DNA of 64,000 bases from Clostridia bacterium. GTDB taxonomy: Bacteria > Bacillota > Clostridia > Christensenellales > Aristaeellaceae. The stretch covers positions 80,075-144,074 of the forward strand of contig JAFWQU010000023.1 in NCBI GenBank assembly GCA_017508975.1. Direction: 5' to 3'. The notes beneath the pieces are model-generated. The model did no database searches, was not told the DNA's origin, and worked only from the letters and a program-made list of their open reading frames with translations. Both the position numbers and the translations under genes were made by a program. This document shows, in pieces, positions 1,107-62,580 of this stretch (position 1 is its first letter; each line of letters opens with the position of its first letter).

Positions 1107-1228
1107 ATACTGATCTCAGCTTTATATGCTTATTGTCAACAGCGGGTTTTCGCGTCTGCGGACGCGACCAGGGCTTTCCGATCGCCCTGGACCTTCGGGT
1201 GCATACTGTTGCTTGATTTGTGGTTTTT
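1107..1228 (+). repeat. Interspersed TIR element, copy A (forward)
   Basis: This copy begins with the terminal motif ATACTGATCTCAG and carries both internal hairpins: one near 1151-1166 with CGCGTC pairing GACGCG, and one near 1168-1190 with CCAGGGC pairing GCCCTGG around the fixed loop. It lacks its own right-hand terminal repeat and runs directly into copy B, so the two form a head-to-tail tandem with a 122-base period. Its T:A pair in the first hairpin replaces the C:G pair of most copies. Confidence 0.85.
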
Positions 1229-1365
1229 ATACTAATCTCAGTTTAGAATGCTTATTGTCAACAGCAGGTTTTCGCGCCTGCGGGCGCGACCAGGGCTTTC
1301 CGATCGCCCTGGACCTTCGGATACATGCTGTTGCTGGATATGCAGTTTTTACCTGAGATTGGTAT
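1229..1365 (+). repeat. Interspersed TIR element, copy B (forward)
   Basis: This is a full-length copy of about 137 bp. It starts with ATACTAATCTCAG at 1229 and ends with TGAGATTGGTAT at 1354-1365. The terminal dodecamer is repeated once more at 1370-1381, which may be the remnant of a further copy. Both internal hairpins are intact. Confidence 0.87.
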
Positions 1366-1410
1366 TACATGAGATTGGTATAACCGCAAAGCCCCGACTT
1401 CTCCAAAAAA

Positions 1411-1475
1411 GTGCACCCGAAGAGTCCAGAGGCGATCGGAAAGCCTCTGGCCGCGCCCGCAGGCGCGGAATCCTT
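1411..1475 (-). repeat. Interspersed element, copy C (reverse, core only, variant stem)
   Basis: Only the core is recognisable here. The first hairpin stem reads CCAGAGGC/GCCTCTGG instead of CCAGGGC/GCCCTGG, while the GATCGGAAA loop is unchanged. The second hairpin is CCGCGCC/GGCGCGG around CGCA. No terminal repeats are visible, so this is a diverged or truncated member. The stretch 1098-1557 holds copies A to C and a terminator and no gene. Confidence 0.75.
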
Positions 1476-1514
1476 TTGCGGGAACAATTGTATTTTGAAG
1501 AAGAATCGTATGAC

Positions 1515-1545
1515 AAAAACCGTCCCCGCGAAAGGGACGGTTTTT
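1515..1545. terminator. Bidirectional rho-independent terminator
   Basis: A stem of CCGTCCC pairing with GGGACGG is flanked by five A on one side and five T on the other. It lies 12 bases past the end of the minus-strand gene at 1558 and can serve both that gene and any reading from dapB. Confidence 0.85.
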
Positions 1546-1557
1546 CAGTGGCCCGCG

Positions 1558-2715
1558 TTACCGCGGCAGGGTGACAGAGTAGACCTCGTTGCCGCAGGCC
1601 ACGATCGCGCGGCCGTTGGAGGTCAGACCGAGCAGTGCGGTGATCTCGACACCGGCGGGCAGCGGAATCTGATGGCTGTAGAACTGCTGGCGGCTGGAGG
1701 AGGTGCGGTAGATCACATTCCCGGACAGGGCATAGATGCTGCCGTTCTGCACCGCGGCGCCCACGCAGCGGGTCGGGACGATGAAGCGGCGGTCCGTGCG
1801 GCCGTTCAGGATCCGCAGGTCTGTGATGCCCTCGGCGCTGTTGAGCTGTGAGGTGCGGGCAAGCAGGATATCCGCGCTGCCCCGGACCGGGATGGACTCG
1901 TTGACGACCTGCCAGCCGTGCACCAGCATGGAAGCGGACAGATCCTGCACCGCCTTGTAGTCGTAGACATACATCTGCTGGGTGGTGAAGACGCGCAGAT
2001 TGCTGTTCTCATAGACCACATGGTAGGCCAGGTAGGAGCCCAGATTCACCACGCCCGTGTTCATCTTGCCGACCTGGAAGGTGTTGAGCACCGTATTGAT
2101 CGAGACGCCGTAGACGTCCATCGCCAGCGTCCACATGTACTGGTCCGCCTCGCCGTAGAAGCCCACGTCCAATAGCAGCATGCCCGGATAGGCGTCGCGC
2201 TCGATGTCCACATGCGTGCCGTCCATGTTCTTGACCATCAGGGTGGGCTCGGTGTCCGTGCCGAAGACCACCGCGCAGTAGCGGCTGCCCACGCGGGCGA
2301 ACTGGACGGCGCCCTCCATGTTCTCATTGTAGGTCGCATGGCCGTTACTGTCGATGATGAAGACCTCCGAGCCGCTCCAGGCGACCACGTGGGTGTCCGA
2401 GACCGAGTAGCGCGCGCCGACGCCCACCGGGAATGACCAGCGGATGCCGCCGCCGGCGTTGAGACAGTGGATCGAGGTGCCGTCATAATAGAGGACGTTC
2501 TCGCCGAAGGGCGTCACGTCCTGGGTGGCCATGCAGGGCAGCAGGGTCGCGCTGATGCGCCCCTCCAGGCGGCTGCCGGGCAGCAGAAAACGCACCGCCG
2601 TGACCACGGCGAAGACCAGCAGCATCAGCACGAGCAGGACCAGCACCCGCCGGAGAACGCTCGGCTTCTCCACATTCTGCCGCTGGCGGTACCGGCGGCT
2701 GGGTTCTTTTTGCAT
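1558..2715 (-). CDS. Membrane-anchored beta-propeller-like protein (DUF5711-like)
   Basis: The protein has 385 residues, with a basic N-terminus (about residues 1-25), one strong membrane segment at about 27-45, and a large outer part of short beta-rich repeats that alternate hydrophobic strands with D/G/N turns. This looks like a WD/PQQ-type propeller facing the cell exterior. I recall similar proteins as DUF5711 but cannot verify the family here. The start at 2715 was chosen because AGGAGG lies seven bases upstream; the longer open frame to 2916 lies inside the upstream gene. It is the last gene of a MoxR-DUF58 operon, 11 bases after the zinc-ribbon gene, so it may help assemble or sense an envelope complex. 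Confidence 0.6.
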   Translation of the reverse strand: MQKEPSRRYRQRQNVEKPSVLRRVLVLLVLMLLVFAVVTAVRFLLPGSRLEGRISATLLPCMATQDVTPFGENVLYYDGTSIHCLNAGGGIRWSFPVGVGARYSVSDTHVVAWSGSEVFIIDSNGHATYNENMEGAVQFARVGSRYCAVVFGTDTEPTLMVKNMDGTHVDIERDAYPGMLLLDVGFYGEADQYMWTLAMDVYGVSINTVLNTFQVGKMNTGVVNLGSYLAYHVVYENSNLRVFTTQQMYVYDYKAVQDLSASMLVHGWQVVNESIPVRGSADILLARTSQLNSAEGITDLRILNGRTDRRFIVPTRCVGAAVQNGSIYALSGNVIYRTSSSRQQFYSHQIPLPAGVEITALLGLTSNGRAIVACGNEVYSVTLPR

Positions 2716-2726
2716 GGATATCCTCC

Positions 2727-3410
2727 TTATTGTTCCAGAAAGCAGTCCGGCAGGCGCAGATCCTTGCGGCGGCCGAGATGCTCCCGGATCAGCGAGGTCA
2801 GCTCCGGCCAGCACTCCGCGGTGCAGGGCAGCGCCATGCGCAGCCAGGGCGCGGGGGCGTAGAGCAGGAGCAGCGAGTGCTCCTGCCACCACTGGACCCG
2901 CCGGATCTCTTTCCATCGCAGGCTTTGTTCACTGAGCAGCAGCCCGTACTCCCGCTGCAGGTCCGCCCGGGCGGCGAGCTTCGGGCTGCGCAGGTGGGCG
3001 AGCAGGCAGAGCGCGCCGGGCTTGGGCAGCAGGACGCGCAGGGTGACGCCGCTCTTGTCGGCGGTCATCTCGAGCGTCTCCCGGCCGCGCAGCAAGAGCC
3101 CAGCAAAAACCAGGAGCACCGCCGCGCCGAGAATCAGCAGCAGGACGCGGGGCGTGGCGCCCCGCAGGAGCGTCCGGACGCCTTCCAAACCTTCCATCGC
3201 GGCCTCGGTGCAGACCAGCGCGGCGGCCACGAGCGCAAGCACCGGAATCACGACCCGCAGCGGCGCGTTCCAGCTGATCCAGTCGCTGACCGGACGCCGC
3301 TGCACGCGCCAGAGCGTGTGGGGCGTCCCCAGCTTTCCGCCGCAGTAGGGGCAGGAAGCGCCGGAGAGCACCTCCTTGGCGCACTTTTTGCAGAAACAGC
3401 TCAGGGCCAA
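2727..3410 (-). CDS. Zinc-ribbon membrane protein of unknown function
   Basis: A 227-residue protein that opens with a zinc ribbon (CKKC near residue 7 and CPYCGG near residue 20). Two hydrophobic segments follow at about 48-70 and 88-108, then a soluble C-terminal domain with a PH-like, beta-rich look. The start is a TTG at 3410, whose SD sequence GAGGAGG lies inside the end of the DUF58 gene; the two genes overlap by ten bases. The position between DUF58 and the propeller-like gene suggests a role in the same membrane complex. I do not recognise a specific family. Confidence 0.6.
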   Translation of the reverse strand: MALSCFCKKCAKEVLSGASCPYCGGKLGTPHTLWRVQRRPVSDWISWNAPLRVVIPVLALVAAALVCTEAAMEGLEGVRTLLRGATPRVLLLILGAAVLLVFAGLLLRGRETLEMTADKSGVTLRVLLPKPGALCLLAHLRSPKLAARADLQREYGLLLSEQSLRWKEIRRVQWWQEHSLLLLYAPAPWLRMALPCTAECWPELTSLIREHLGRRKDLRLPDCFLEQ

Positions 3411-5633: not shown

Positions 5634-6599
5634 ATGGCGGATTTGCTGGGTTTGCTCGCCGGGGGCGGGTTTGTGTCCGGGGAGCGGCTCAGCCGTGAGC
5701 TGGGCGTCACCCGGGCGGCAGTCTGGAAACAGATCCACGCCCTGCAGGATGCCGGCTGGCCCATCGAGAGCGGCGGCAAGCGCGGCTACCGGCTGGGCGC
5801 CTGCGACCGGCTGGAGCCGGAACTGTGGCGCGGCAGCCTGACCACGGCGGCGCTCGGGCGCGACACGGTCTGGTACCGGGAGGAGACGGACTCCACCAAC
5901 CGGCAGCTGAAGCTCCTGGCGGCGGAGGGCGCGCCCCACGGCAGCCTGTGCCTCTGCGAGCGGCAGACGGCGGGACGCGGGCGGATGGGCCGCGTCTGGC
6001 AGAGCCCGGCGGGGGTTGGCCTGTGGCAGTCGGTGCTGCTGCGGCCCAGCCTTCCCCCGGAGCGGGCGGCGTTGATCACCTTCTGCGCGGCGCTGGCCAT
6101 GGCGGACGCGGTGGAGGAGAGCTGCGGGCTCCCGCTGGACATCAAGTGGCCCAACGACCTGCTCTGCCGTGGAAAAAAGGTCTGCGGTATCCTGCTGGAG
6201 ATGAGCGCGGAGCCGGACCGCCTGGAGTATGTGGTGGCCGGCGTGGGGCTCAACGTGCTGCCCGGCTCGGTGCCGGAGGAACTGCGCGGACAGGCGGCCT
6301 GCCTGGCGGAATTCTGTGAGCCGGCCCCGCGCCGGGAGATCCTCTGCCGCTATCTCGCCTGCCTGGAGGGCTGGCTGGAGCGGCTGGAGACGGGCGGCTG
6401 GGAGGCTGTCGCTGGGAGCTACAAGGCGCGGTGTGTGACGCTGGGACGCGCGGTGCGGGTCTCCGGCGGACAGACGATGACGGGCACCGCGGAGGACCTG
6501 GACGGCCAGGGCTGCCTGCTGGTCCGGGACGAGCGCGGGGAGCTCCGCCGGGTGTTTGCCGGGGACGTGTCGGTGAGGGGCGTGATGGGCTATGTCTGA
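5634..6599 (+). CDS. birA: Bifunctional biotin--protein ligase / biotin repressor
   Basis: BirA activates biotin with ATP and attaches it to biotin carboxyl carrier proteins, and its N-terminal helix-turn-helix represses biotin genes. Here residues 1-60 form the winged helix (LSRELGVTRAAVWKQI). The ligase signature GRGRMGRVWQSP lies near residue 112, KWPNDL near 172, and a C-terminal SH3-like domain follows. The length of 321 residues is typical of the bifunctional type. The ATG at 5634 was preferred over the GTG at 5628 because GGGAG is eight bases from the ATG but only two from the GTG. It overlaps acpS by eight bases. Confidence 0.95.
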   Translation: MADLLGLLAGGGFVSGERLSRELGVTRAAVWKQIHALQDAGWPIESGGKRGYRLGACDRLEPELWRGSLTTAALGRDTVWYREETDSTNRQLKLLAAEGAPHGSLCLCERQTAGRGRMGRVWQSPAGVGLWQSVLLRPSLPPERAALITFCAALAMADAVEESCGLPLDIKWPNDLLCRGKKVCGILLEMSAEPDRLEYVVAGVGLNVLPGSVPEELRGQAACLAEFCEPAPRREILCRYLACLEGWLERLETGGWEAVAGSYKARCVTLGRAVRVSGGQTMTGTAEDLDGQGCLLVRDERGELRRVFAGDVSVRGVMGYV

Positions 6600-7699: not shown

Positions 7700-9442
7700 A
7701 AACGCAAACTGATTGTGCTGTGTGTGGCTCTGTTGTTGCTGACGGCGCTGGCATCGTTGGCGCTGGCGGATGGAGACGCGCTGAAGTTCAAGATGGACGT
7801 CCAGCCGAACCGTTTCACGGGGCCGCAGGAGGCCTCGGTGGGCATCCAGGTGTCCAACTCCGGCGAGAGCGATATGCCCGGCCCGGTGACGCTTTATGAT
7901 CCGAACGACCAGCAGATCGAGGAGTTCGGCGCGCCGGTGCTGACAGCGGGAAGCTCCCAGTCCTGGATGGGCAAGGTGCAGGTCACCCAGGAGATGCTGG
8001 ACAAGGGCGAGATCGCCTTCAGCATCCGCTATCCCTACACGAACGACGAGGGCGAGATCAAATACAAGCACAAGACCTTCCGCAAGCCGATCACCTACGA
8101 CACGAACAAGGTGCAGGTGGAGGTCAACCGCTCCATCACCCCGCCGACGACCGCTGGCAAAGGGCAGACGGTCACGGTGACCTACGAGATCGTCAACACC
8201 GGCACGGTCGACATCACGGACGTGCGGATCACGGAAAACAAGTCCATCTCCACCTCCCCGGGAACCATCAAGAAGGTGGCGCCCGGTTCGAAGGAGAGCC
8301 ATACGTTCACCGTCAAGATGGGCACCAAGAACCTGGTCTCCCAGGCGACGATCATCTATACGGCTGACGGCAATAAGGTCACGGTGACCAAGGAGCCGGT
8401 CACGATCTACTACGGGGAGATCAAGCTCAAGGCCACGCTGACCGCGGACAAGACCGGCGGTATGGTCGGCGACACGGTGAAGCTGACGCTGAAACTCGAA
8501 AACACCAGCAAGGATGAGACCTACAGCAACATCACGATCACCGATCCGACGCTGGGCGAGGTCTTCTCCGGGCTGTCCCTGGATCCCGGCGAGACGCTGA
8601 ACGAGGTGAAGGAGGTCACCCTCAGCGAGGACACCACCTACCAGTTCACGGCGCTGACCCGCAACGCGGACGACCGTGATGTCCAGACCTCCACCGAGCA
8701 GGTCAAGATCCTGGTCATGGAGCCCTCCGAGGCGGCCAACCTGACGGTGAAGGCCGAGGCGGACCGCACCACGATCTACGAGACACCCGGCACGGTGCGT
8801 TTCACGGTGTTCGTCACCAACAACTCCGCCGCGGACATTGAGAATGTGTCGATCTATGCGACCGGCGTGCAGCTGTACCAGTTCCCGCTGATCCTGGCCG
8901 GCGAGACCCGGGAGTTCACCCGGGACATCGGCGTGTCCATGGCCGGCAGCTACCAGTTCGTCGCCCGCGTGCGCAACAAGCTGAATGAGACGGAGAGCTT
9001 TGAGAGCAACATCGTGCGCATCGGCTACGCCCGTCCCACCGCGGTTCCGACCGAGGCGCCCATGGTGACGCCGCCCGCGCCCCAGAAGGTGCCGGTGCCG
9101 CAGGTCGACGACCTGCCGGAGAGCTACACGAACCTGGCGACCACGCTGAAGAGCGTGGGACTGGGCCTGCTGGTGCCCGTGGCGATCGGCGCGCTGCTGA
9201 CCCTGATCGGCCTTGTCGCCCGCATCATCCGCGGCATCCAGTCCCACGGCGCGCTGGACCACCTCGAGCGGACGGTCAGCCGCGACTATGAACAGCCCGG
9301 CGAGGAAGCCAAGAGCGAGAAGAAAAAGAAGGACGACGACGAGAAGAAGGAAAAGAAGGACGAGGAGCCCCTCGGGGATGAGGACGACGACACCGCGATC
9401 GTGCGGCGCCGCCACCGCAGAACCGACGACGAAGAATCCTGA
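7697..9442 (+). CDS. Exported, C-terminally membrane-anchored protein with tandem Ig-like repeats
   Basis: A 581-residue protein with a classical signal peptide (basic KRK, hydrophobic core, ALA near residue 24). Three to four beta-sandwich repeats of about 100 residues follow, of the CARDB/DUF11 adhesin type, each with a V.V.Y.I.NTGT or L.L.LENTS strand pattern. A proline/threonine linker lies near residues 445-475 and a transmembrane helix near 490-515. The cytoplasmic tail is extremely charged, rich in K, D and E. The ATG was fixed by the signal peptide. It has its own strong promoter and a terminator, so it is monocistronic and probably abundant. Its ligand is unknown. Confidence 0.7.
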   Translation: MKRKLIVLCVALLLLTALASLALADGDALKFKMDVQPNRFTGPQEASVGIQVSNSGESDMPGPVTLYDPNDQQIEEFGAPVLTAGSSQSWMGKVQVTQEMLDKGEIAFSIRYPYTNDEGEIKYKHKTFRKPITYDTNKVQVEVNRSITPPTTAGKGQTVTVTYEIVNTGTVDITDVRITENKSISTSPGTIKKVAPGSKESHTFTVKMGTKNLVSQATIIYTADGNKVTVTKEPVTIYYGEIKLKATLTADKTGGMVGDTVKLTLKLENTSKDETYSNITITDPTLGEVFSGLSLDPGETLNEVKEVTLSEDTTYQFTALTRNADDRDVQTSTEQVKILVMEPSEAANLTVKAEADRTTIYETPGTVRFTVFVTNNSAADIENVSIYATGVQLYQFPLILAGETREFTRDIGVSMAGSYQFVARVRNKLNETESFESNIVRIGYARPTAVPTEAPMVTPPAPQKVPVPQVDDLPESYTNLATTLKSVGLGLLVPVAIGALLTLIGLVARIIRGIQSHGALDHLERTVSRDYEQPGEEAKSEKKKKDDDEKKEKKDEEPLGDEDDDTAIVRRRHRRTDDEES

Positions 9443-9506: not shown

Positions 9507-9620
9507 ACTGCAAATCTGGCAACAGCATGCATCCGAAGGTCCAGGGCGATCGGAAAGCCCTGGTCGCGCCCGCAGGCGCGAAATCTCCCCGCTGACAATG
9601 GGAATAGAGACAGAGATCAT
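9507..9620 (-). repeat. Interspersed TIR element, copy D (reverse)
   Basis: The core with both hairpins (CCAGGGC/GCCCTGG and CGCGCC/GGCGCG) is intact. The left terminal repeat is decayed; the right one is shortened to GAGATCAT. Its last base, 9620, is also the last base of the TGA stop of the minus-strand gene 9620-10462. Confidence 0.8.
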
Positions 9621-10479: not shown

Positions 10480-10587
10480 CTGATCCTGTTCTCTGGCAAA
10501 AGAGATTTCGCGCCTGCTGGCGCGACCAGAGACTTTCCGATCGCCTCTGGACTCTTCGGGTACATGCCTTATTTTGCGATTTGGTAT
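10480..10587 (+). repeat. Interspersed element, copy E (forward, variant stem)
   Basis: The core is present with the variant stem CCAGAG/CTCTGG also seen in copy C. On the complementary strand its one imperfect pair is a G:T wobble. The left end is decayed; the right end reads GATTTGGTAT at 10578-10587. Confidence 0.72.
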
Positions 10588-10727
10588 CAAACCGATCTCA
10601 ATTAAGAATTACAAATACGGCAACAACATGCTGCCGAAGGCCCAGGGCGATCGGAAAGCCCTGATCGCCGCCCGTAGGCCGCGAAATCTCACTGCTGACA
10701 ATAAGCATTCTAAACTGAGATCAGTAC
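10588..10727 (-). repeat. Interspersed TIR element, copy F (reverse)
   Basis: A nearly full-length copy with left end ACCGATCTCA and right end TGAGATCAGTAC. The right terminal repeat itself supplies the TGA stop codon (10721-10723) of the membrane protein gene upstream. One pair of the second hairpin is mismatched. Confidence 0.8.
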
Positions 10728-29620: not shown

Positions 29621-31015
29621 ATGGATCAATTCAGCCGGAAGAACAACGTGCTCATGCAGCACAAATACCACTATGAGCTGCAGGACGTGAAGGAGCCGAA
29701 TCTGTACCGGGAGATCTTCACCTACGACAGCGTGCCGATGATCACCTTCAACATGCGGCACGTGCCGGAGGACATGCCCGACGAGATCTGGATGACGGAC
29801 ACGACCTTCCGCGACGGTCAGCAGTCGGTCAGCCCCTTCACGCCCGAGCAGATCGTGTATCTGTTCAAGCTCCTGAGCCGCCTCGGCGGCCCCAAGGGGC
29901 TGGTCCGGCAGAGCGAGTTCTTCCTCTATACCGAGAACGATCAGCGCGCGCTGCGCATGTGCCAGGACCTGGGTCTGGAGTTCCCGGAGATCACCACCTG
30001 GATCCGCGCCAACAAAAAAGACTTCGAGCTGGTCAAGCAGGCGAACGTGAAGGAGACCGGCATCCTGGTCTCCTGCTCGGACTACCACATTTTCAACAAG
30101 ATGCACATGACCCGCTCCGAGGCGTGGGACAAATATCTGGGCATCGTGAAGGACGCCCTGGACATGGGCATCCGGCCGCGCTGCCACTTTGAGGATATCA
30201 CCCGCGCGGACTTCTACGGCTTTGTGGTGCCCTTCGCCACCGAGCTGATGAAGCTCAGCCGGGAGAGCGGCATCCCGATCAAGATCCGTGCCTGCGACAC
30301 CATGGGCTACGGCGTGACCTACTACGGCGCGGCGCTGCCCCGCTCGGTGCCGGGCATCATCTACGGCCTGCGGCACTACGCAGAGGTGCCCTCGGAACAG
30401 CTCGAGTGGCACGGGCACAACGACTTCTACAAGGTGGTCAGCAATGCCGGCGCGGCCTGGATGTACGGCTGCTCGTCCGTCAACTGCTCCCTGCTGGGCA
30501 TCGGCGAGCGCACCGGCAACTGCCCGCTGGAGGCCATGGCGGTCGAGTACATGGGCTTGCGCGGCGACACCGGCGGCATGGATCTGACGGCGGTGACGGA
30601 GATCGCGGACTTTATGGAGCGCGAGATCGGCATCGAGGTCAGCCCGCGGCAGCCCTTCGTCGGCCGCCACTTCAACGTGACCCGCGCGGGCATCCACGCC
30701 GACGGCATGCTCAAGGACGAGGAGATCTACAACATCTTCGACACCGGAAAGCTCCTGAACCGACCGCCGCTGGTGGCGGTAGACTCCCACGGCGGCCTCG
30801 CCGCGGTGGCGCACTGGATCAACACCTATTTCCGTCTGCCCCCGGACCAGGCGGTCGACAAGAGCGATCCCCTGGTGGCCGCGGTCCGCGCGGAGGTCGA
30901 CAAGCTCTACGCCAACGGCCGCAACACGGTCATGGGCGACGAGGAACTGGAGATCATGGTCCGCAACGCCGGCGTGGAGCGCTACGAGAAGCTGCTGTTC
31001 CGCAGGAGTAAGTAA
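29621..31015 (+). CDS. DRE-TIM metallolyase (isopropylmalate / homocitrate / Re-citrate synthase type)
   Basis: A 464-residue enzyme with a TIM barrel: TDTTFRDGQQ near residue 60 (catalytic Asp-Arg), RQSEFFL near 93, and the metal motif WHGHND near 266 (H-x-H). It also has the GERTGNCPLEA segment typical of isopropylmalate and homocitrate synthases. The C-terminal regulatory LeuA dimer domain seems absent. My recollection is that clostridial Re-citrate synthases have this size and look, and the upstream aminotransferase would fit citrate and glutamate synthesis, but the acceptor 2-oxo acid cannot be decided here. Its TAA shares its last base with repeat copy G. Confidence 0.75.
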   Translation: MDQFSRKNNVLMQHKYHYELQDVKEPNLYREIFTYDSVPMITFNMRHVPEDMPDEIWMTDTTFRDGQQSVSPFTPEQIVYLFKLLSRLGGPKGLVRQSEFFLYTENDQRALRMCQDLGLEFPEITTWIRANKKDFELVKQANVKETGILVSCSDYHIFNKMHMTRSEAWDKYLGIVKDALDMGIRPRCHFEDITRADFYGFVVPFATELMKLSRESGIPIKIRACDTMGYGVTYYGAALPRSVPGIIYGLRHYAEVPSEQLEWHGHNDFYKVVSNAGAAWMYGCSSVNCSLLGIGERTGNCPLEAMAVEYMGLRGDTGGMDLTAVTEIADFMEREIGIEVSPRQPFVGRHFNVTRAGIHADGMLKDEEIYNIFDTGKLLNRPPLVAVDSHGGLAAVAHWINTYFRLPPDQAVDKSDPLVAAVRAEVDKLYANGRNTVMGDEELEIMVRNAGVERYEKLLFRRSK

Positions 31016-31152
31016 TACCAATCTCAGTTTAGAATGCATATTGTCAACAGAGAGATTTCGCGGCCTGCGGGCCGCGACCAGGGCTTTCCGATCGCCCTGG
31101 ACCTTCGGATGCATGCTGTTGCTTGATTTGAAGTTTTACTTGAGATCAGTAT
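31015..31152 (+). repeat. Interspersed TIR element, copy G (forward, complete)
   Basis: A 138-bp complete copy: left end ATACCAATCTCAG, right end TGAGATCAGTAT. It has the 7-bp CGCGGCC/GGCCGCG hairpin and the CCAGGGC/GCCCTGG hairpin. Its first base is the last A of the preceding TAA stop codon. Confidence 0.9.
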
Positions 31153-31184
31153 AGCTTCAGTGCTGAATTTCCCCGAGCCATCAA

Positions 31185-31275
31185 AGGAGGGTGCTGCCGA
31201 AGGTCCAGGGCGATCGGAAAGCCCTGGTCGCGCCCGCAGGCGCGAAACCCCCTTGCTGAGGATATGCATTCCTGA
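31185..31275 (-). repeat. Interspersed element, copy H (reverse, no terminal repeats)
   Basis: The core with both hairpins is intact, in opposite orientation to copy G, 33 bases away. The outer arms are diverged and no terminal repeats are seen. It makes up most of the leader of the following gene. Confidence 0.78.
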
Positions 31276-31304
31276 TATTGCAACAGAACAGGCAGGCGAC
31301 ATCC

Positions 31305-31718
31305 ATGAGAAGAATCTACTTCGCCGGTTCGATCCGCGGGGGACGCGCGGACGCGGAACTCTACCGCCGGATGATCGCGCGGATGCAGGAGACCGATCTC
31401 GTCCTCACCGAGCACATCGGAAACCCGGAGCTGAGTCCCTTCGAGCAGATCCCCGGACAGGACCGGGAGATCTACTCCCAGGACACCGAGTGGCTCCGCA
31501 GCGCCGACCTCGTGATCGCCGAGTGCACAACGCCCTCCCTGGGCGTCGGCTACGAGCTGGCCTACGCCGAGGCGCGGGGGATTCCCTGCTACATCTTCTA
31601 CAATGCCTCCCGGACCAGCCTCTCCGCCATGCTGACCGGGGATCCGTATTTCAACATCTGTCCCTATTCCGGCGAGGAGGAGCTCATGGCCAGACTGGCG
31701 GAAATCCTGAACGCGTGA
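31305..31718 (+). CDS. 2'-deoxynucleoside 5'-phosphate N-hydrolase-like protein (DNPH1/Rcl type)
   Basis: A 137-residue member of the nucleoside 2-deoxyribosyltransferase superfamily. IYFAGSIRGGR at residues 4-14 matches the DNPH1 phosphate-binding loop, and SLGVGYELAYAEA near residue 84 holds the catalytic Glu. TEHIG and QDTEWLRSADLVIAE also match DNPH1, so it probably cleaves deoxynucleoside monophosphates to base and deoxyribose 5-phosphate in nucleotide pool cleaning. The ATG at 31305 was chosen; a TTG at 31278 in the same frame lies next to repeat copy H. A terminator follows directly. Confidence 0.82.
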   Translation: MRRIYFAGSIRGGRADAELYRRMIARMQETDLVLTEHIGNPELSPFEQIPGQDREIYSQDTEWLRSADLVIAECTTPSLGVGYELAYAEARGIPCYIFYNASRTSLSAMLTGDPYFNICPYSGEEELMARLAEILNA

Positions 31719-31719
31719 G

Positions 31720-31762
31720 AAAAGCCCGTCGTACCCGACTGTGCGGGTATGGCGGGCTTTTG
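31720..31762 (+). terminator. Rho-independent terminator
   Basis: AAAAGCCCG pairs with CGGGCTTTT around an inner hairpin (TACCCG/CGGGTA), directly after the stop codon of the N-hydrolase gene. Confidence 0.85.
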
Positions 31763-31765
31763 CAT

Positions 31766-31882
31766 TATAATCAGGAAAGGGTATGCAACCGAAGGTCCAG
31801 GGCGATCGGAAAGCCCTGGTCGCGGCCCGCAGGCCGCGAAATCCCGCTGCTGACAATAGGCATACGAAACTTAGATCAGTAT
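31766..31882 (-). repeat. Interspersed element, copy I (reverse, tandem with J)
   Basis: The core with 7-bp CGCGGCC/GGCCGCG hairpin is intact, and the right end reads TAGATCAGTAT. It stands head to tail with copy J at an offset of 122 bases, the same offset as copies A and B. Confidence 0.82.
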
Positions 31883-32000
31883 CAACTACAAATCAGAAAA
31901 GGGTATGCAACCGAAGGTCCAGGGCGATCGGAAAGCCCTGGTCGCGGCCCGCAGGCCGCGAAATCTCTCTGCTGTCATTCAGCGATACTGAGATTGGCTT
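31883..32000 (-). repeat. Interspersed element, copy J (reverse)
   Basis: The core is intact and the right end is TGAGATTGGCTT (31989-32000). Its last base is the last base of the TAA stop codon of the minus-strand kinase gene. Confidence 0.82.
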
Positions 32001-33538
32001 TACTCCTTAGTCTCCAGAAGGACCTCGATTTTGTCGCAGACATCGTCCAGAAATGTGTCTGTGTCGGCGGCGTGATAGCCGCCTTTCTCGCGGGAAAACT
32101 GCTTGACCTCAATCTCCGGAATCGTCCGGCCGTCGATCGCGTCCATACGGATGCGGGTGTACAATTCCTGAAGATAGGCATCCACTTCCGCGCGGCTGTA
32201 TCCCATCACAGCGGTGCGGAGCACAGGCGCCTGCAGCATGGAGAGGATCTCCTGCTTTTTCTTTTCATCGAAGAAGAACTGGGCACGGTAGGGCTTATGG
32301 AGAAGGAGTTTTTCAATGCCATCGCACACATCGTCCAGAAACCGGTCGGTCTCGAGCTTGTCATAGCCGCGCTTGGAGAGGGTGAACAACTCCTCCTCAA
32401 TGGTCTTGATGGTCTCCATGCTCTCCGTGGAAGCCGCGAGCACCGCCGCGATCCGGGCGCAGGAGGCATCCACCTCCGAGGGCTTGTATCCGACCGACTG
32501 GAACGAGGGCCGGAACGTCTGCAGCCGCGTGATCAGATCCTGTCGGACAGGCGCGCCGGGAGCGGCATTTTTCCGGACGGTCTGCAGGCCCTTTTTGATG
32601 TCCGCGAGCGCGTCGAGAAAGACTTCCGGGTTTGGAAAACGGTCGTCCGTACGGTAGGCAAGGGCCTTGCGGAGAAACGCGTTGACCTCCGGAGCGGCAT
32701 TCGGGAGGGCCGGAATGTCCGTGCCCCGGATCCGGAGGAGAAACGCCTGACGGCGGGTGGTACTCTCGCTCTCGAAGGGCAGGAAACCGCCGTTCAGATA
32801 CTGATAGAGCACCAGCGCCAGGGAGTAGAGGTCCGCGCGGTGGTCGTAGCGGCCGCCCGCCTCGTCCGGGGCGGAGTAGACCTCCGGCGCCATATAGCTC
32901 TCCGTGCCCACACGGTTGGACAGGTCGGAGGAGACACTTCCGGAGGCGCGGGCCAGGCCGAAGTCGCCGAGCTTGAAGCGCCCGCGGCCGGTGACGAAGA
33001 GGTTTCCGGGCTTGATGTCCCGGTGCAGGATCCCCTCCTGCCGGCAGACAGCCAGCAGGCCGCCGATTTCCTCCGCCAGCCGCCAGACGTCCGCCGGGCT
33101 CAGCGGATGCTGCTTCGCGTAGGCCGGGAGCGGCGTCAGCAGCTCCATGCGGATCAGCACCCGCCAGGTGCCGTCCTCCTCGAAGCGGTAGAGCCGGCAG
33201 TCCTCCAGCCGCACGGAGGCGGGCTCGTCGTGGATCGCGGCCATGGCGCGGACCTCTCGCTGAACATGAGCCACCCGCTCCTCCAGCTCCCGCTGCAGAT
33301 GACTCTCGCTGACGGAACGCTCCTGCAGGGCCTGCAGTTCGGCGTCATTCTGCGGGATGTCGATCACCTTCAAGGCACAGCGCAGCTCCGTCAGGCCGGT
33401 GGAGCGGATCTCATAGACCTTCGCCTGGCTGCCCTCGCCGATCTTCCGGACGATCTCCCATCCGTCCAGCACCGTGCAGCCCGGCTCGATGGGCTGCTCA
33501 GACCGGGAGGAGACGATCTCATAGCTGTATTCCGACAT
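32000..33538 (-). CDS. Cytoplasmic Ser/Thr protein kinase fused to DivIVA-like repeats
   Basis: A 512-residue protein. Residues about 27-315 form a Hanks-type kinase: glycine loop GEGSQAKVY (34-42), ATP lysine Lys57, catalytic HRDIKPGN (172-179), DFG (192-194) and MAPE (216-219). A charged insert (about 63-97) precedes helix C. The C-terminal 165 residues hold four short motifs starting GY at 350, 391, 446 and 487. Motifs 1 and 3 continue with EVDA; motifs 2 and 4 with TD-x-FLDDVCD-x-IE-x-LL, as in DivIVA family repeats. No membrane helix or PASTA domain is present. A paralogue starts at 63428. Targeting to septum or pole is inferred only. Confidence 0.85.
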   Translation of the reverse strand: MSEYSYEIVSSRSEQPIEPGCTVLDGWEIVRKIGEGSQAKVYEIRSTGLTELRCALKVIDIPQNDAELQALQERSVSESHLQRELEERVAHVQREVRAMAAIHDEPASVRLEDCRLYRFEEDGTWRVLIRMELLTPLPAYAKQHPLSPADVWRLAEEIGGLLAVCRQEGILHRDIKPGNLFVTGRGRFKLGDFGLARASGSVSSDLSNRVGTESYMAPEVYSAPDEAGGRYDHRADLYSLALVLYQYLNGGFLPFESESTTRRQAFLLRIRGTDIPALPNAAPEVNAFLRKALAYRTDDRFPNPEVFLDALADIKKGLQTVRKNAAPGAPVRQDLITRLQTFRPSFQSVGYKPSEVDASCARIAAVLAASTESMETIKTIEEELFTLSKRGYDKLETDRFLDDVCDGIEKLLLHKPYRAQFFFDEKKKQEILSMLQAPVLRTAVMGYSRAEVDAYLQELYTRIRMDAIDGRTIPEIEVKQFSREKGGYHAADTDTFLDDVCDKIEVLLETKE

Positions 33539-34989: not shown

Positions 34990-36702
34990 ATGCTGCAGAG
35001 TTTGAACATCCGCAATGTCGCGCTGATCGAGCGGCTGACGATCCCGTTTGAGCGGGGCCTGCACACGCTGACCGGCGAGACAGGCGCGGGAAAATCCATC
35101 ATCGTGGACGCGGTGAACCTGGTTCTGGGCGGACGGGGCGACCGCGGGCTGATCCGCACGGGCACCGACCGCGCCGCGGTGGAGGCGGAGTTCTCCACAG
35201 ACCGGCCGGAGGCGCTCCGGTGGCTCGCGGAGCAGGAGATCGACGCGCCGGACGGGCAGATTACCCTCTACCGGGAGATCACGGCGAGCGGCCGCAGCAC
35301 CTGCCGGGTCTGCGGCGTGCCGGTGCCGCTGACCGCCCTGCGGGAGCTGTCGGCGCTGCTGATGGACGTCCACGGACAGCACGAGAACCAGTTCCTGCTG
35401 GACGAGCGCTACCATCTCCAGGTGCTGGACGGCACCGGGGACGAGGCGCACCAGCGGCTCCTGCGGGAGACGGAGGAGGCCTGCGAGGCCTTCCTCGGCT
35501 GCCATCGCCGCTGGTCGCACCTGGTGCGCGAGAACGAGCAGAAGCAGGCGCGCATGGCGGAGCTGGAGCGCAGCCTGGAGGAGCTGCGCCAGGCGAAACT
35601 GCGTCCCGGCGAGGAGGAGAAGCTGCGCGAGGAGCGCGAGCGCAACCGCCACGCGGGGAAGATCGACGCGGCGCTGCGGGAGGCCCGCGAGGAGCTGACC
35701 GGCGAGCCGGACGCGGCCCTGGGCCGGATCCGCGCCGCGGCGGAGTGCCTGGACGCGATCGCCCCGCTCGGGGAGAATTACCGCGCGCTGGCGGGCCGCA
35801 TCCGCTCCGCGTTTTTCGAGCTGGAGGAGGCGGGCTATGAGCTGGCCCGGCTGATGGACAGCGGCGCCTTCGATCCGAACCGCGCGGAGGCGGTGGAGAG
35901 CCGGCTGGAGCTGATTGCCCGCCTGGAGCGGCGCTATGGCGCGGACATTCCGGCGGTGCTGGCGGAGCAGCAGCGGATGGAGGAGGAGCTGGACCGCCTG
36001 ACCTCGATGGACAGCGAGCTGGCGAGCCTCGCCGCGCAGGACCGGCAGCTGCTGCAGCACTACCGGAGCCTGGCCCGGGAACTGACGGCCTCCCGTGAGC
36101 GCCTGGCCGCGCGATTTGAGCAGGGCATGGTCGAGCAGCTGCGCGATCTGGGCATGGAGCGCACCGAGTTCCGCGCCGCCTTTGCCCCGAAGCCGGAGAA
36201 ACCGCATCTGCCGCGCCCCACCGGGGACGACGAGGTCTCTTTCCTGATCTCCCCGAACCCCGGGGAGCCGCTCAAGCCGCTGGCGAAAATCGCCTCCGGC
36301 GGAGAGCTCTCCCGGCTGATGCTGGCGCTGAAGAATCTGGAGGCCCGGCGCGGCGGTGTGGACTGCATGGTCTTCGACGAGATCGACACGGGCATCTCCG
36401 GCCGGATCGCGCAGGCGGTGGCGGAGAAGATGGCGAATATCGCCCGGGACCGGCAGGTCCTGTGCGTGACGCACCTGCCGCAGCTGGCCGCGATGGCGGA
36501 TGTGCAGCTGCTGGTGGAGAAGACCACGGCGGAGGGACGCACGCAGACCCATGTCCGCACGCTGGACATGGCCGAGCGCGCGGAGGAGGTCGCCCGGATG
36601 CTCGGCGGCGCCGAGGGCAGCGGCGACAGCGCCTTGCAGCACGCCCGGCATCTGATTGAGGCCGCGGAGGAGCTCAAAGCGGCACAGCGGGGGAAAGCGT
36701 GA
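34990..36702 (+). CDS. recN: DNA repair protein RecN
   Basis: An SMC-like ATPase for double-strand break repair, 570 residues. Walker A GETGAGKS is at residues 28-35; the QHENQFLLD motif lies near 132; a coiled-coil arm covers about 150-370; the signature ASGGELSRLMLALK lies near 436 and Walker B CMVFDEIDTG near 458. It follows argR after 19 bases. The TGA stop shares its last base with repeat copy K. Confidence 0.97.
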   Translation: MLQSLNIRNVALIERLTIPFERGLHTLTGETGAGKSIIVDAVNLVLGGRGDRGLIRTGTDRAAVEAEFSTDRPEALRWLAEQEIDAPDGQITLYREITASGRSTCRVCGVPVPLTALRELSALLMDVHGQHENQFLLDERYHLQVLDGTGDEAHQRLLRETEEACEAFLGCHRRWSHLVRENEQKQARMAELERSLEELRQAKLRPGEEEKLREERERNRHAGKIDAALREAREELTGEPDAALGRIRAAAECLDAIAPLGENYRALAGRIRSAFFELEEAGYELARLMDSGAFDPNRAEAVESRLELIARLERRYGADIPAVLAEQQRMEEELDRLTSMDSELASLAAQDRQLLQHYRSLARELTASRERLAARFEQGMVEQLRDLGMERTEFRAAFAPKPEKPHLPRPTGDDEVSFLISPNPGEPLKPLAKIASGGELSRLMLALKNLEARRGGVDCMVFDEIDTGISGRIAQAVAEKMANIARDRQVLCVTHLPQLAAMADVQLLVEKTTAEGRTQTHVRTLDMAERAEEVARMLGGAEGSGDSALQHARHLIEAAEELKAAQRGKA

Positions 36703-36840
36703 ATCCAATCTCAAGGAAAAATGCAACATCCGGCAACAGCATGTGGCCGAAGGTCCAGGGCGATCGGAAAGCCCTGGTCGCGGCCCGCAGGCCGCGAAAC
36801 CCCGCTGCTGACAATCAGCATATTGAAATGAGATCAATAT
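36702..36840 (-). repeat. Interspersed TIR element, copy K (reverse, complete)
   Basis: A 139-bp copy with left end ATCCAATCTCAAG, right end TGAGATCAATAT, and both hairpins intact (7-bp CGCGGCC type). Its first base is the last A of the recN TGA. Confidence 0.88.
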
Positions 36841-37942: not shown

Positions 37943-38078
37943 ATGCTGATCTCAAGAAAAACTACAACAAGAAAGAACATGTAACCGAAGGTCCAGGGCG
38001 ATCGGAAAGCCTTGGTCGCGGCCCGCAGGCCGCGAAATCTCACTTTTGATAATAAGTATTCTAAACTGAGATCAGTAT
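37943..38078 (-). repeat. Interspersed TIR element, copy L (reverse, complete)
   Basis: A 136-bp copy with left end ATGCTGATCTCAAG and right end TGAGATCAGTAT. Its last base (38078) is the last base of the TGA stop of the minus-strand GH67 gene. Both hairpins are present. Confidence 0.88.
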
Positions 38079-58118: not shown

Positions 58119-58271
58119 TATCCAGTTTATAAGAAATGAGGATATCTCCCAAAGGGTGAATCCGAAGGTCCAGGGCGATCGGAAAGCCGCCAGTCCGGCT
58201 GCGGACCTGGTCGCGCCGGCAGGCGCGAAATTTCCCTGTTGACATTTAGCACACGATACTGAGATCAGTAT
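58118..58271 (-). repeat. Interspersed TIR element, copy M (reverse, with 17-base insert)
   Basis: A 154-bp copy, equal to a standard 137-bp copy plus about 17 extra bases inside the 3' arm of the first hairpin (near 58189-58205). The left terminal repeat is diverged (GTATCCAG); the right one is TGAGATCAGTAT. It lies between priA and def and makes up most of the gap. Confidence 0.82.
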
Positions 58272-58327
58272 TAGCCGACATTTCTCAAACACAATGAGCG
58301 TATCAAACAGAGAGGAAGGAAAAACAA

Positions 58328-58831: not shown

Positions 58832-58841
58832 GGTGGCGGGC

Positions 58842-59747: not shown

Positions 59748-59760
59748 GCAAATTCCGCTC

Positions 59761-59789
59761 TTTACTTTCGCGCCCTAGTGTGTTAAAAT
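59761..59789 (+). promoter_or_regulatory. Promoter of the yerC-iorA-iorB operon
   Basis: TTTACT and TAAAAT with a 17-base spacer, 34 bases before the GTG start of the yerC-like gene. Confidence 0.6.
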
Positions 59790-59823
59790 GCTAAAGAACG
59801 CACACGGACAGGAGGAGAGGACA

Positions 59824-60159
59824 GTGGCGAGAACCGGAAAGAAACCCCGGAGCAATGCGCTCTATGAGGCGATCCTGCAGCTGCGGGACATGGACGAGTG
59901 CCGGCGGTTTTTTGACGACCTGTGCACGCCCACGGAACTGCGCAGCATGGAGCAGCGCTTCGACGTGGCGGTGTATCTGCTCCAGGACAAGGTCTACGCG
60001 GAGATCCTGGAGAAGACAGGCTCGAGCAGCGCCACCATCAGCCGTGTGCGCCGCAATATCCTCGAGAGCGAGACAGGCGGCGCCATGCGGGAGATGATCC
60101 TGCGGCTGGGCCTGGCGGAGGATCCAGATCAAGAGACAAGCGGAGGAGAATCGGAATGA
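59824..60159 (+). CDS. YerC/YecD-type TrpR-related regulator
   Basis: A 111-residue all-helical protein of the TrpR-like superfamily. FFDDLCTPTELRSMEQRFDVAVYLL and the helix-turn-helix GSSSATISRVRRNIL match Bacillus YerC. The GTG at 59824 is preceded by AGGAGGAG at good spacing; the frame further upstream lacks an SD. Its TGA overlaps the iorA ATG by four bases, so this TrpR relative is co-translated with genes for aromatic amino acid metabolism and is a likely regulator of them. Confidence 0.85.
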   Translation: MARTGKKPRSNALYEAILQLRDMDECRRFFDDLCTPTELRSMEQRFDVAVYLLQDKVYAEILEKTGSSSATISRVRRNILESETGGAMREMILRLGLAEDPDQETSGGESE

Positions 60160-61901
60160 AACGACTGATGTTGGGCAACGCGGCCGCGGCCCGCGGACTT
60201 TATGAGGCGGGCTGCGCGGTGGTCTCCAGCTACCCGGGAACCCCCAGCACGGAGATCACCGAGGAGGCGGCGAAATTCGACGAGATCTACTGCGAATGGG
60301 CGCCGAACGAGAAGGTGGCGCTGGAGACGGCTTTCGGCGCCTCGCTGGCCGGGAAGCGCGCCTTCTGCGGCATGAAGCACGTGGGACTGAACGTGGCGGC
60401 GGATCCGCTGTTCACGATCTCCTACACCGGCGTGAACGCCGGCCTGGTGATCGCGGTGGCGGACGACCCCGGGATGCACTCGTCCCAGAACGAGCAGGAC
60501 TCCCGGCACTACGCCCAGGCGGCGAAGATCCCCATGCTGGAGCCCTCGGACGCGGCGGAGTCCCGGGCGTTCATGAAGGCGGCCTATGAGATCTCGGAGC
60601 GTTTTGACACGCCGGTGCTCTACAAGATGTGCACCCGCATCGCCCACTCCCAGTCCCTGACCGAGACCGACGCGCGCGTGGAGCCAGCGGTCCGGCCCTA
60701 TGAGAAGAACATCGCGAAGTATGTCATGATGCCCGGCAATGCGATCCGCCGCCATCCGTTGGTGGAGGAGCGCACCCGCAGCCTCACCGCCTGGGCGGAG
60801 GACTGCCCGCTGAACCGGGTGGAGGAGGGCGCGGATCACAGCGTCGGCTTCATCACCTCCTCCACGAGTTACCAGTATGTGAAGGAAGTCTTTGGCGACA
60901 GGCACCCGGTGTTCAAGCTGGGCATGGTCTGGCCCATGCCGGTGGAGGCGCTGAAGCGCTTTGCCGCGGGCGTGGAGCGGCTGGTGGTCGTCGAGGAGCT
61001 CGATCCCTTCATCGAGGAGCACTGCCGCTGCATCGGGCTGAACCCGGAGGGCAAGTCGCTCTTCCCGCTGGAGGGCGAGTTCAGCCAGAACCTCGTGGCG
61101 CAGAAGCTGGGCGTCGAGCGGGTGAAGGGCGCCGCCCTGGAGGAGAAGATCCCCGCGCGCCCGCCGGTGATGTGCGCCGGCTGTCCGCACCGCGGGCTGT
61201 TCTACACCCTGACCCGGAACCATTGCACGGTGCTGGGCGATATCGGCTGCTACACGCTGGGCGCGGTGGCGCCGCTGTCCGCCATCGAGATGACCGCCTG
61301 CATGGGCGCGTCCGTCAGCGGCCTGCACGGCTTCAACAAGGCGCTGGGCGCGGAGAGCGAGGGGAAGACCGTCGCCGTGATCGGCGATTCCACCTTCATG
61401 CATTCCGGCATGACCGGCCTGGCGAACATCGCCTACAACCAGTCCAACTCCACCGTGATTATCCTGGACAACTCCATCACGGGCATGACCGGCCACCAGC
61501 AGAACCCGACCACGGGCTACAACATCAAGGGCGACCCGGCGGGCAAGATCGACCTGGAGAGCCTCTGCCGCGCGATGGGCATCCGCCGCGTGCGGGTGGT
61601 TGACCCGTACAACCTGGCGGAGTGCGACCGCGCGGTGAAGGAGGAGCTAGCCGCGCCGGAACCCTCCGTGATCATCTCGCGGCGCCCCTGCGCCCTGCTC
61701 AAGTACGTGAAGCACAAGGCTCCGCTGCGGGTGAACCCGGACAAGTGCGTGGGCTGCAAGCAGTGCATGAAGATCGGCTGCCCGGCCATCTCCATCAAGG
61801 AGGGCAAGGCCCGGGTGGACGAGACCCTGTGCGTGGGCTGCGGCGTGTGCAGCCAGCTGTGCCGCGTGGGCGCGCTGGAGACGACGGAGAAGGAGGGCTG
61901 A
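60156..61901 (+). CDS. iorA: Indolepyruvate:ferredoxin oxidoreductase, alpha subunit
   Basis: IorA binds thiamine diphosphate and converts aryl pyruvates to aryl-acetyl-CoA with reduction of ferredoxin, or the reverse. The 581-residue protein begins with a PFOR-like pyrimidine domain (SSYPGTPSTEI near residue 24). The ThDP-binding domain holds CAGCPHRGLFYTL near 340 and GDSTFMHSG near 410. The C-terminus has two 4Fe-4S clusters (CVGCKQCMKIGCP and CVGCGVCSQLC). CGGAGGAG precedes the ATG. IorB follows after three bases. Confidence 0.96.
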   Translation: MKRLMLGNAAAARGLYEAGCAVVSSYPGTPSTEITEEAAKFDEIYCEWAPNEKVALETAFGASLAGKRAFCGMKHVGLNVAADPLFTISYTGVNAGLVIAVADDPGMHSSQNEQDSRHYAQAAKIPMLEPSDAAESRAFMKAAYEISERFDTPVLYKMCTRIAHSQSLTETDARVEPAVRPYEKNIAKYVMMPGNAIRRHPLVEERTRSLTAWAEDCPLNRVEEGADHSVGFITSSTSYQYVKEVFGDRHPVFKLGMVWPMPVEALKRFAAGVERLVVVEELDPFIEEHCRCIGLNPEGKSLFPLEGEFSQNLVAQKLGVERVKGAALEEKIPARPPVMCAGCPHRGLFYTLTRNHCTVLGDIGCYTLGAVAPLSAIEMTACMGASVSGLHGFNKALGAESEGKTVAVIGDSTFMHSGMTGLANIAYNQSNSTVIILDNSITGMTGHQQNPTTGYNIKGDPAGKIDLESLCRAMGIRRVRVVDPYNLAECDRAVKEELAAPEPSVIISRRPCALLKYVKHKAPLRVNPDKCVGCKQCMKIGCPAISIKEGKARVDETLCVGCGVCSQLCRVGALETTEKEG

Positions 61902-61904
61902 GCC

Positions 61905-62477
61905 ATGGAGACCAAGAACATCATGATCGTGGGCGTGGGCGGCCAGGGCAGCCTGCTCGCCTCCAAGCTCCTGGGACAGCTGCTGGTCGCGCAGAACTAT
62001 GACGTGAAGGTCAGCGAGGTGCACGGCATGAGCCAGCGCGGCGGCAGCGTCGTGACCTATGTGCGCTACGGCGACCGCGTGGCCTCCCCGGTGATCGACA
62101 AGGGTGAGGCGGACTTCATCGTCTCCTTCGAGCAGCTGGAGGCCGCCCGCTGGCTGGAGTACCTGAAGCCCGGCGGACAGATCGTGACCTCGACGCAGCA
62201 GATCGATCCCATGCCGGTCATCACCGGCGTGATGGCCTATCCGGAGAACCTGATCGAGAAGATGCGCGCAGCCGGCGCGAAGGTCGACGCCCTGGACTGC
62301 CTCTCCCTGGCCAAGCAGGCCGGCAGCGCCAAGGCCGTGAACATCGTCCTCATGGGCCGCCTGTCCCACTACTTCGACCTCCCCGAGGAGGCCTGGATGG
62401 CCGCTCTGGAGGCGGTTGTCCCCGCGAAGTTCCTGGAGCTGAACAAGAAGGCGTTTGTGATGGGGAAGAACGCGTAA
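61905..62477 (+). CDS. iorB: Indolepyruvate:ferredoxin oxidoreductase, beta subunit
   Basis: The 190-residue gamma-type subunit (PFOR domain III) that completes IorAB. IMIVGVGGQGSLLASKLLG at the N-terminus and SEVHGMSQRGGSVVTYVRYG near residue 36 are diagnostic. It is the last gene of the yerC-iorAB operon; its TAA shares its last A with repeat copy N. Confidence 0.95.
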   Translation: METKNIMIVGVGGQGSLLASKLLGQLLVAQNYDVKVSEVHGMSQRGGSVVTYVRYGDRVASPVIDKGEADFIVSFEQLEAARWLEYLKPGGQIVTSTQQIDPMPVITGVMAYPENLIEKMRAAGAKVDALDCLSLAKQAGSAKAVNIVLMGRLSHYFDLPEEAWMAALEAVVPAKFLELNKKAFVMGKNA

Positions 62478-62580
62478 TACCAATCTCAAGTAAAAACTGC
62501 AAATCCAGCAACAGCATGCGGCCGAAGGTCCAGGGCGATCGGAAAGCCCTGGTCGCGGCCCGCAGGCGCGAAACCTCCCA
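62477..62580 (-). repeat. Interspersed TIR element, copy N (reverse, 3' truncated)
   Basis: The left end ATACCAATCTCAAG and both hairpins are present; the second hairpin has a one-base bulge. The right arm stops after CCTCCC and the far terminal repeat is absent. Its first base is the last A of the iorB TAA. Confidence 0.8.

Follow-up and report, generated by a model that had tools for sequence, protein, structure and literature searches.

An interspersed repeat family in an Aristaeellaceae genome

The stretch of DNA examined here, referred to as the window, comprises 64,000 nucleotides of a Clostridia bacterium of the Aristaeellaceae (assembly GCA_017508975.1, contig JAFWQU010000023.1; G000:C24:80075-144074), whose 1.52-Mb genome is represented by 26 contigs and is 66% complete. 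Within the window lie 14 cores of a short noncoding element, found in both orientations, and repeat searches of the window recover the same family. An initial annotation had proposed this family of 14 copies; it is confirmed, with both orientations and approximately 350 copies genome-wide. That annotation fused two things: a miniature inverted-repeat transposable element (MITE), and a core that is independent of the ends of this element. The family is probably a structured, noncoding interspersed repeat plus a vehicle. For the core, the interpretation that we favor with moderate confidence from its sequence features is a pseudoknot-clamped class I intrastrand-triplex repeat, akin to the BoxC/TM sequences of Escherichia coli.

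For the end motif ATACTGATCTCA, allowing no more than two mismatches, there are 17 sites versus an expectation of 1.83. Allowing at most one mismatch, the 15-mer GGCGATCGGAAAGCC is present at 350 places genome-wide (one for the reversed control), and exact matching of a relaxed core pattern gives 324 matches in this genome (none for the reversed control). A profile search of a 464-kb sample, made up of the window and 20 stretches of 20 kb from the same genome, returned 105 copies scoring at least 30 bits, or one per 4.4 kb. Exact patterns undercount, as illustrated by a relative (G025) whose loop reads GAGCGG and which has 49 matches by model R1 and none by pattern. The candidates that model R1 scored in each genome were limited in number (150 in one scan and about 91 in another), and its counts are lower bounds. 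Copies are present genome-wide and in relatives, so the family is not confined to the window.

The sequence had not been recognized in the initial annotation, and Rfam likewise gives no repeat match above gathering thresholds for the whole window and 20 related loci, nor any plausible match at E values up to 10 for positions 30990-32010 of the window. In the literature library searched, we found no paper printing GCGATCGGAAAGC and no title or abstract opening that describes this family.

Pairing within the core

From 5′ to 3′, the core consists of a tail (CCGA), a linker (AGG(N)), a purine-rich arm ending in GGGC, the loop GATCGGAAA and a pyrimidine arm that begins with GCCC. A second GC hairpin, P3, completes the core in this lineage, and its loop is mostly CGCA in this and near genomes; P3 is absent from many distant and viral copies. 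The core sequence is nearly uniform across the 105 copies. Among relatives and viral contigs the stem, P2, varies with compensation, as in CCAGGGC/GCCCTGG, CCAGAGGC/GCCTCTGG and CCAAAGGGC/GCCCTTTGG, and further compensated types include GCAAGGGC/GCCCTTGC and TAAGGGGGC/GCCCCCTTA, among others.

Pairing was assessed on 57 gapless 37-mers picked by their anchors only; two rows of this alignment (A4), L060:7102 and L083:510, look like chance matches and were kept. Paired cells amount to 90.7% versus 78.7% after shuffling, and the covariation score is 0.299 versus 0.111, a value equaled by none of 500 shuffles and by no slid register (at most 0.168). The outer pair between tail and loop, for which the anchor constrains neither side, is CG in 45 sequences, GC in nine and neither in three. 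Covariation thus supports a predicted hairpin whose loop pairs with its own 5′ tail. The core of two hairpins described in the initial annotation is better drawn as one hairpin with a loop-tail pairing plus a second hairpin, P3, and the core is not restricted to elements with the ends described below.

Tandem arrays of cores lacking P3 are present in other genomes (L101:4176-4329, L066:7411-7510 and L112:709-773). A likeness between the loop (GATCGGAA) and a sequencing adapter extends over a few bases only and was dismissed.

A code relating the linker to the purine arm

The linker mirrors the purine arm that follows it: AGGTTT occurs with CCAAAGGGC, AGGGGT with CCAGGGGGC, AGGAGT with CCAGAGGGC and AGGTGGT with CCGGAGGGC. 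With j numbering the linker bases from the tail, i numbering the arm bases from the loop, and G.GC, T.AT and A.AT scored as fits, the register i=j+1 fits at 389 of 439 positions across 97 distinct linker-arm combinations; the fraction is 0.71 for register j and 0.58 for register j+2. Of the 250 variable positions 202 fit, whereas 2000 shuffles within equal lengths gave 157 on average and 177 at most. Opposite an arm A the linker carries T in 63 cases, A in 12, C in four and G in two; opposite an arm G it carries G in 127, T in seven and A in three. For these counts 67 of 405 matches were dropped because their stems are shorter than 6 bp, as was also done for the run-length counts given below; loci L001-L004 and L153-L165 were left out of both and of the looser first count of the code.

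A linker sequence suited to serve as a 5′ third strand antiparallel to the purine arm, with G.GC, A.AT and T.AT triplets as in a class I purine motif, is found at one register. Judged by its base preferences, the linker-arm code is that of an antiparallel purine motif. For the complementary strand, a parallel motif that places A opposite A-T pairs would be required, and such a motif is not standard. The single register, measured from the clamped end, holds across stems of different length, as would be expected with a paired tail and loop and a linker lying along the major groove. Covariation supports four predicted features, namely the stem, P3, the outer tail-loop pair and the linker-arm code.

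Distribution in relatives and viral contigs

Model R1 matches 15 of 60 genomes, this one included. The relaxed pattern matches 29 of 150 genomes of the family, or 28 of the 149 others, with no reversed-control match in any. Copy numbers are very uneven among close relatives: 421 in G009, the 324 noted above here and 267 in G035, with none in 121 of the 150. Some gut Clostridia thus carry the element hundreds of times. Nine of the 28 other positive genomes have a single match, and the matches in G014 and G021 look like chance. A stricter pattern had no match in 291 other genomes drawn evenly from the class. Among the matches listed in named records, titles are nearly all those of Clostridia, Clostridiales or Ruminococcus metagenome-assembled genomes, although such titles do not show whether all belong to the same family and one record listed is labeled Poribacteria. 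Where the title of a listed match tells the host, it is a goat, a sheep, a deer or a rabbit.

The same core is found with other flanks in other genera and in viral contigs, 48 stretches of which match. Copies sit in gaps between phage genes in L216, which carries terminase large subunit and portal genes, and in L227, which carries a head maturation protease gene (PHROGs); phage genes were checked in these two loci. A plasmid search gave no matches, and a search of phage records gave one 7.8-kb record without annotation.

Of 58 copies in viral contigs, among which related phages are possibly counted more than once, 42 have the conserved strand antisense to the genes on both sides and 13 have it sense. 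The stem end lies within 15 nt of the stop codon of a gene on the opposite strand in 28 of the 58, compared to two for the other side. Among cellular related loci the corresponding numbers are 39 antisense and 49 sense, with a stop codon near the stem end in nine versus two (n=197), and in this genome they are 23 and 23, with zero and zero (n=73).

Placement, orientation and pairs

Genes were called with a home-made predictor in a GC-rich genome. The initial annotation placed copies only between genes. This is upheld for the cores, none of the 105 in the 464-kb sample lying inside a predicted gene, and must be relaxed for the ends, which reach into gene ends, over one base at many stop codons and over seven bases at 10721-10727. 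Nor is the rule absolute elsewhere, since three of 210 cellular copies in related loci and seven of 70 in viral contigs lie in predicted open reading frames; some of these are probably chance matches or wrong reading frames.

Gaps between tandem genes hold 36 sense and 35 antisense copies in the 464 kb. Convergent gaps hold 31 copies and divergent gaps three, although gaps longer than 60 bp number 29 and 36, respectively, and divergent promoters are thus avoided. A few cellular copies lie just upstream of start codons. A riboswitch or 5′ leader was considered and rejected, given the three of 105 copies in divergent gaps and the lack of sense bias.

Neighboring copies less than 300 bp apart are arranged head-to-head in 18 cases, in tandem in seven and tail-to-tail in one in this genome; in related loci the numbers are 31, 15 and 11. 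In this genome, 13 of 17 head-to-head pairs join partners of unlike linker-arm type (chance 0.40). At related loci partners differ in 38 of 38 head-to-head pairs (no chance figure), 12 of 12 tail-to-tail and ten of 18 tandem pairs. Unlike partners cannot form one long perfect palindrome, and so each presumably folds on itself. A second interspersed palindrome, CCCCAGCTTGCTGGGGAGATGCCGCG...GGCAGAGGGG, is located between or beside head-to-head cores (L006, L009, L010 and L023; free of terminal repeats), and another type of spacer between cores holds CCCTCCCTACCGAGGGAGGGG.

These distributions bear on an alternative in which the element is a structured RNA, folded as a three-way junction with an H-type pseudoknot, that was spread by transposition and that, from within untranslated regions, affects mRNA stability or transcription, for instance, in cis. 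The covariation of the stem, P3 and outer tail-loop pair would be shared by such an RNA, as would the constant loop and an apparent covariation of an outer stem, P1, seen by eye only. The proximity of viral stem ends to stop codons and the few cellular copies found just upstream of start codons likewise speak for it. Against it, tandem gaps here and the other cellular loci have no strand bias, and the conserved strand in viral contigs is mostly antisense to genes. Rfam, as noted, holds no counterpart. Moreover, the introduction of a study of E. coli repeats states that a purine-motif triplex cannot form in RNA (PMC4666352), which would favor DNA as the folded form, although single RNA base triples are still possible. 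We therefore judge the RNA alternative rather unlikely, and prefer the intrastrand triplex, in which DNA rather than RNA is inferred to fold, and to do so in the cell.

Terminal inverted repeats and target sites

Terminal inverted repeats (TIRs) had been assigned to the family as a whole. They are real, and of the 105 copies in the 464 kb, 33 have both, 18 have one and 54 have none by the criteria used; in the window both are present in only five of the 14 copies (1229, 10589, 31015, 36702 and 37943), one in five and none in four. The length of 136-139 bp given for complete copies holds for full copies without an insertion. Full copies read TNA-TACTGATCTCA...TGAGATCAGTA-TNA including their flanks, with the left T present in 29 of 33 and the right A in 32 of 33. 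The middle base of this putative target-site duplication (TSD) agrees in 20 of the 28 copies that have both T and A, compared to a mean of 7.6 after shuffling, and none of 20000 shuffles did as well.

In 21 of the 51 TIR-bearing copies, among them those at 31015, 32000, 36702, 38078 and 62477 in the window, the TIR edge and a predicted stop codon have exactly one base in common. Copies end exactly on stop codons because TNA includes TAA and TGA, and with an overlap of one base insertion leaves the gene whole. The TIR-bearing subset is a MITE that ends in TACTGATCTCA/TGAGATCAGTA and duplicates a 3-bp target, TNA; the terminal inverted repeats expected of a MITE are found in this subset only. 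Tandem copies have one TIR in common, with a period of 122 bp (1107/1229 and 31744/31866), and right-end pieces lacking the first stem exist (L005 near 5827-5897 and L013 near 8601-8672).

Evidence for mobility comes from the gap between priA and def, which measures 209 bp with its copy here and 15-41 bp, without a copy, in seven genomes of the same genus (G001, G003, G004, G005, G006, G007 and G008). In G011 the gap measures 155 bp, and the core it holds is another one, belonging to the GCGA/TCGC type. An orthologous locus was not recovered from G002 or G010, and the gap in G009 could not be assessed. Insertion polymorphism, with sites that are empty in relatives, was found at this locus only, and the copy there has one TIR. 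At this one locus, separate insertions have occurred at the same kind of place.

Transposase models searched against 12 same-genus genomes gave seven matches for PF01609, none for PF13340 and one for PF13586, the last on one of the seven PF01609 loci. These loci lack the MITE ends on both sides, and several are cut by contig ends. A TNA target rule is known for the IS1031 group of the IS5 family, which makes a DDE transposase of the IS5/IS1031 kind the likely candidate for the driver of the MITE. In G002, a TIR-like sequence lies at the stop codon of a DDE_Tnp_1 transposase gene near a contig end (L160:2259).

If the family were a MITE only, left over from a decayed transposon and filled passively by the core, then its TIRs, TNA duplication, intergenic insertion and lineage-specific presence between priA and def would all be accounted for. 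The 54 copies without a recognized TIR would not, and neither would the core with other flanks in other genera and viral contigs. In addition, identity to the consensus in 22 full copies (130-142 bp; 38 rows dropped) is 97.5% in the core, 79-81% in the connecting arms and 89% in the TIRs. The core is better kept than the TIRs and is therefore not mere filler, although homogenization between copies could also contribute to its identity. We find this alternative very unlikely. The Correia- and RUP-like plan noted in the initial annotation accordingly suits the TIR copies, with their TNA duplication and empty priA-def site, and is insufficient for the core.

Copies in the window

The individual copies are listed below.

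Copies of the repeat in the window (TIR, terminal inverted repeat; TSD, target-site duplication). In the tabulation of TIRs and lengths, copy 1229 was counted through to 1381.
Position	Strand	Copy	Ends and context
1107..1240	-	right TIR	other TIR common with next copy (tandem, 122-bp period)
1229..1365	-	both TIRs	tandem partner of 1107 copy; extra lone TIR end 1370-1381
1402..1479	+	core without TIRs	AGAG-type stem (CCAGAGGC/GCCTCTGG)
9516..9606	+	core	TIRs unrecognizable at threshold used
10498..10574	-	core without TIRs	AGAG type; head-to-head with 10589 copy
10589..10727	+	both TIRs	flanks TCA/CCA; 7-base overlap (10721-10727) with predicted - gene end
31015..31152	-	both TIRs	right end on stop codon of + gene ending 31015
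31180..31259	+	core without TIRs	head-to-head with 31015 copy
31772..31882	+	right TIR	tandem with 31894 copy, 122-bp period
31894..32000	+	degenerate right TIR (3 mismatches)	ends on stop codon of - gene ending 32000
36702..36840	+	both TIRs	left end on stop codon of gene ending 36702; TSD TGA/TGA
37943..38078	+	both TIRs	right end on stop codon of - GH67 gene; TSD TCA/TCA
58145..58271	+	right TIR	priA-def gap; hairpin GCCAGTCCGGCTGCGGAC inserted in stem
62477..62579	+	left TIR	left TIR on stop codon of gene ending 62477

The nearly invariant hairpin GCCAGTCCGGCTGCGGAC is inserted in the 3′ stem arm of about 21 listed copies, with and without TIRs, at 58175-58242 in the window and, for example, at L005:16709-16816. 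Elsewhere in the window, inverted repeats I1-I3 (70-81% alike) link 32000-33538 (-), a Ser/Thr kinase-like gene with a DivIVA match at its very C-terminus, with approximately 63509-64000 (+), which is probably a paralogue. A cluster of five tRNA genes lies at 62732-63228 (-).

Comparison with known systems

The BoxC/PIT/TM repeats of E. coli are described as rich in GC, about 35 nt long and capable of folding into an intrastrand triplex of the purine motif (Holder et al. 2015, PMC4666352). According to that paper, BoxC/TM and the present family share an intergenic location, a lack of cellular strand bias and inverted pairs of unlike types, with five of five TM inverted pairs joining type A to type B (section 18). 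By the same account, BoxC/TM belong to class II, with the third strand 3′, whereas the order here is that of class I (third strand, purine, pyrimidine). The present family differs further in its compensated loop-tail pairing, constant loop, added hairpin and hundreds of copies, and it forms fewer triplets. It also occurs in phage-like contigs and on a MITE, whereas TM is reported not to have been found on transposons, phages or plasmids, and the TM sequences printed there differ from the core described here.

The family has in common with Correia, RUP and other bacterial MITEs its short noncoding elements, its TIRs and the duplication of a target, which here often lies at a stop codon. It differs in duplicating 3 bp (TNA) rather than the TA of Correia and RUP, and in a structured core that also lives without these ends. 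It resembles the IS1031 group of the IS5 family in its TNA duplication, by the rule given above, and differs in that the three models revealed no transposase flanked by these ends on both sides in the 12 same-genus genomes.

Repetitive extragenic palindromes (REP), with their BIME and REPIN arrangements, are also interspersed gene-end palindromes with inverted unlike pairs and alternating arrays, although no sequence likeness between REP elements and this family is known. Small palindromic units, inverted pairs, alternating arrays and gene-end placement would all fit a REPIN system mobilized by a RAYT (Y1) transposase, as would the Y1 matches in G005 (one; at least 33 copies by R1) and G008 (two; at least two copies). 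The initial annotation noted no transposase or RAYT-like gene in the window, and the absence of Y1 extends further: PF01797 has no match in this genome, at 66% completeness, or in six high-copy relatives (G001, G004, G009, G011, G025 and G035; at least 49 R1 copies each and 92-97% complete). Y1 genes are also present in relatives without copies. Mobilization by RAYT therefore seems very unlikely.

Discussion

Several observations weigh against an intrastrand triplex or limit the evidence for it. The middle two tail-loop pairs are set by the anchors and so test nothing, and the fourth is A-T in 39 of the 57 sequences and unpaired in 18. Pairs changed on both sides were reached by 44 of 500 shuffles and further pair types by 40 of 500, and the covariation shuffles leave relatedness in place. 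Stem mismatches have no strand preference (26 G.T versus 21 A.C in a symmetric recount); an earlier excess taken to indicate strand-specific folding was an artefact of the pairing filter, and this recount removed it. A looser first count of the linker-arm code gave 458 of 597 positions, with 236 of 351 variable positions versus 158 in shuffles (maximum 182). Triplet runs are short in this genome, with three triplets in 58 of 76 copies, four in 14 of 76 and a range of 0-4, so that the triplex stem of 6-15 nt of the ITxF criterion is not reached here; elsewhere, runs of five are usual in relatives and viral contigs, and runs of six or seven occur in four of the 97 combinations. The viral orientation bias (42 versus 13) could be an insertion preference. 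No autonomous element with TACTGATCTCA/TGAGATCAGTA ends was found in the 12 same-genus genomes with PF01609, PF13340 and PF13586. For E. coli, the same study reports that PIT/BoxC lack promoter and terminator activity and block DNA polymerase in vitro with no effect in vivo, and that the isolated TM strand folds while footprinting in vivo showed no triplex (PMC4666352).

In the mechanism that we propose for the clamped triplex, a single-stranded state, arising during replication or behind RNA polymerase, would let the arms pair. The loop TCGG would then pair with the tail CCGA, and the linker, running antiparallel to the purine arm within its major groove, would supply the third strand of a short triplex of the purine motif. 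Part of the copies would be carried by the MITE (TACTGATCTCA...TGAGATCAGTA), which would duplicate TNA and slip into TAA or TGA stop codons harmlessly. Other copies, in head-to-head pairs mostly of two unlike types, would spread by a route outside the MITE.

Most likely, the element is mainly a selfish repeat that is tolerated at gene ends and whose folded strand would hinder polymerases. In phages it may have been put to use immediately downstream of stop codons, where the folding strand would be the template. We raise more tentatively, as possible rather than probable, that selection maintains the DNA triple helix, rather than an RNA one; the covarying base triples and the compensated loop-tail pairing would then indicate that the intrastrand triplex forms in cells, and phages would position it right after stop codons, the folding strand being the template, to serve as an insulator or as a roadblock to polymerase on one strand.

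The findings on E. coli TM bear on whether intrastrand DNA triplexes occur in living bacteria (PMC4666352). With concerted changes of linker and stem that obey triplex rules, and compensatory changes in the clamp, the many diverging copies in relatives and viral contigs would provide an evolutionary test of triplex formation. The family would also illustrate clearly how a structured repeat can be carried by a MITE that, owing to its TNA target, can insert safely at stop codons.

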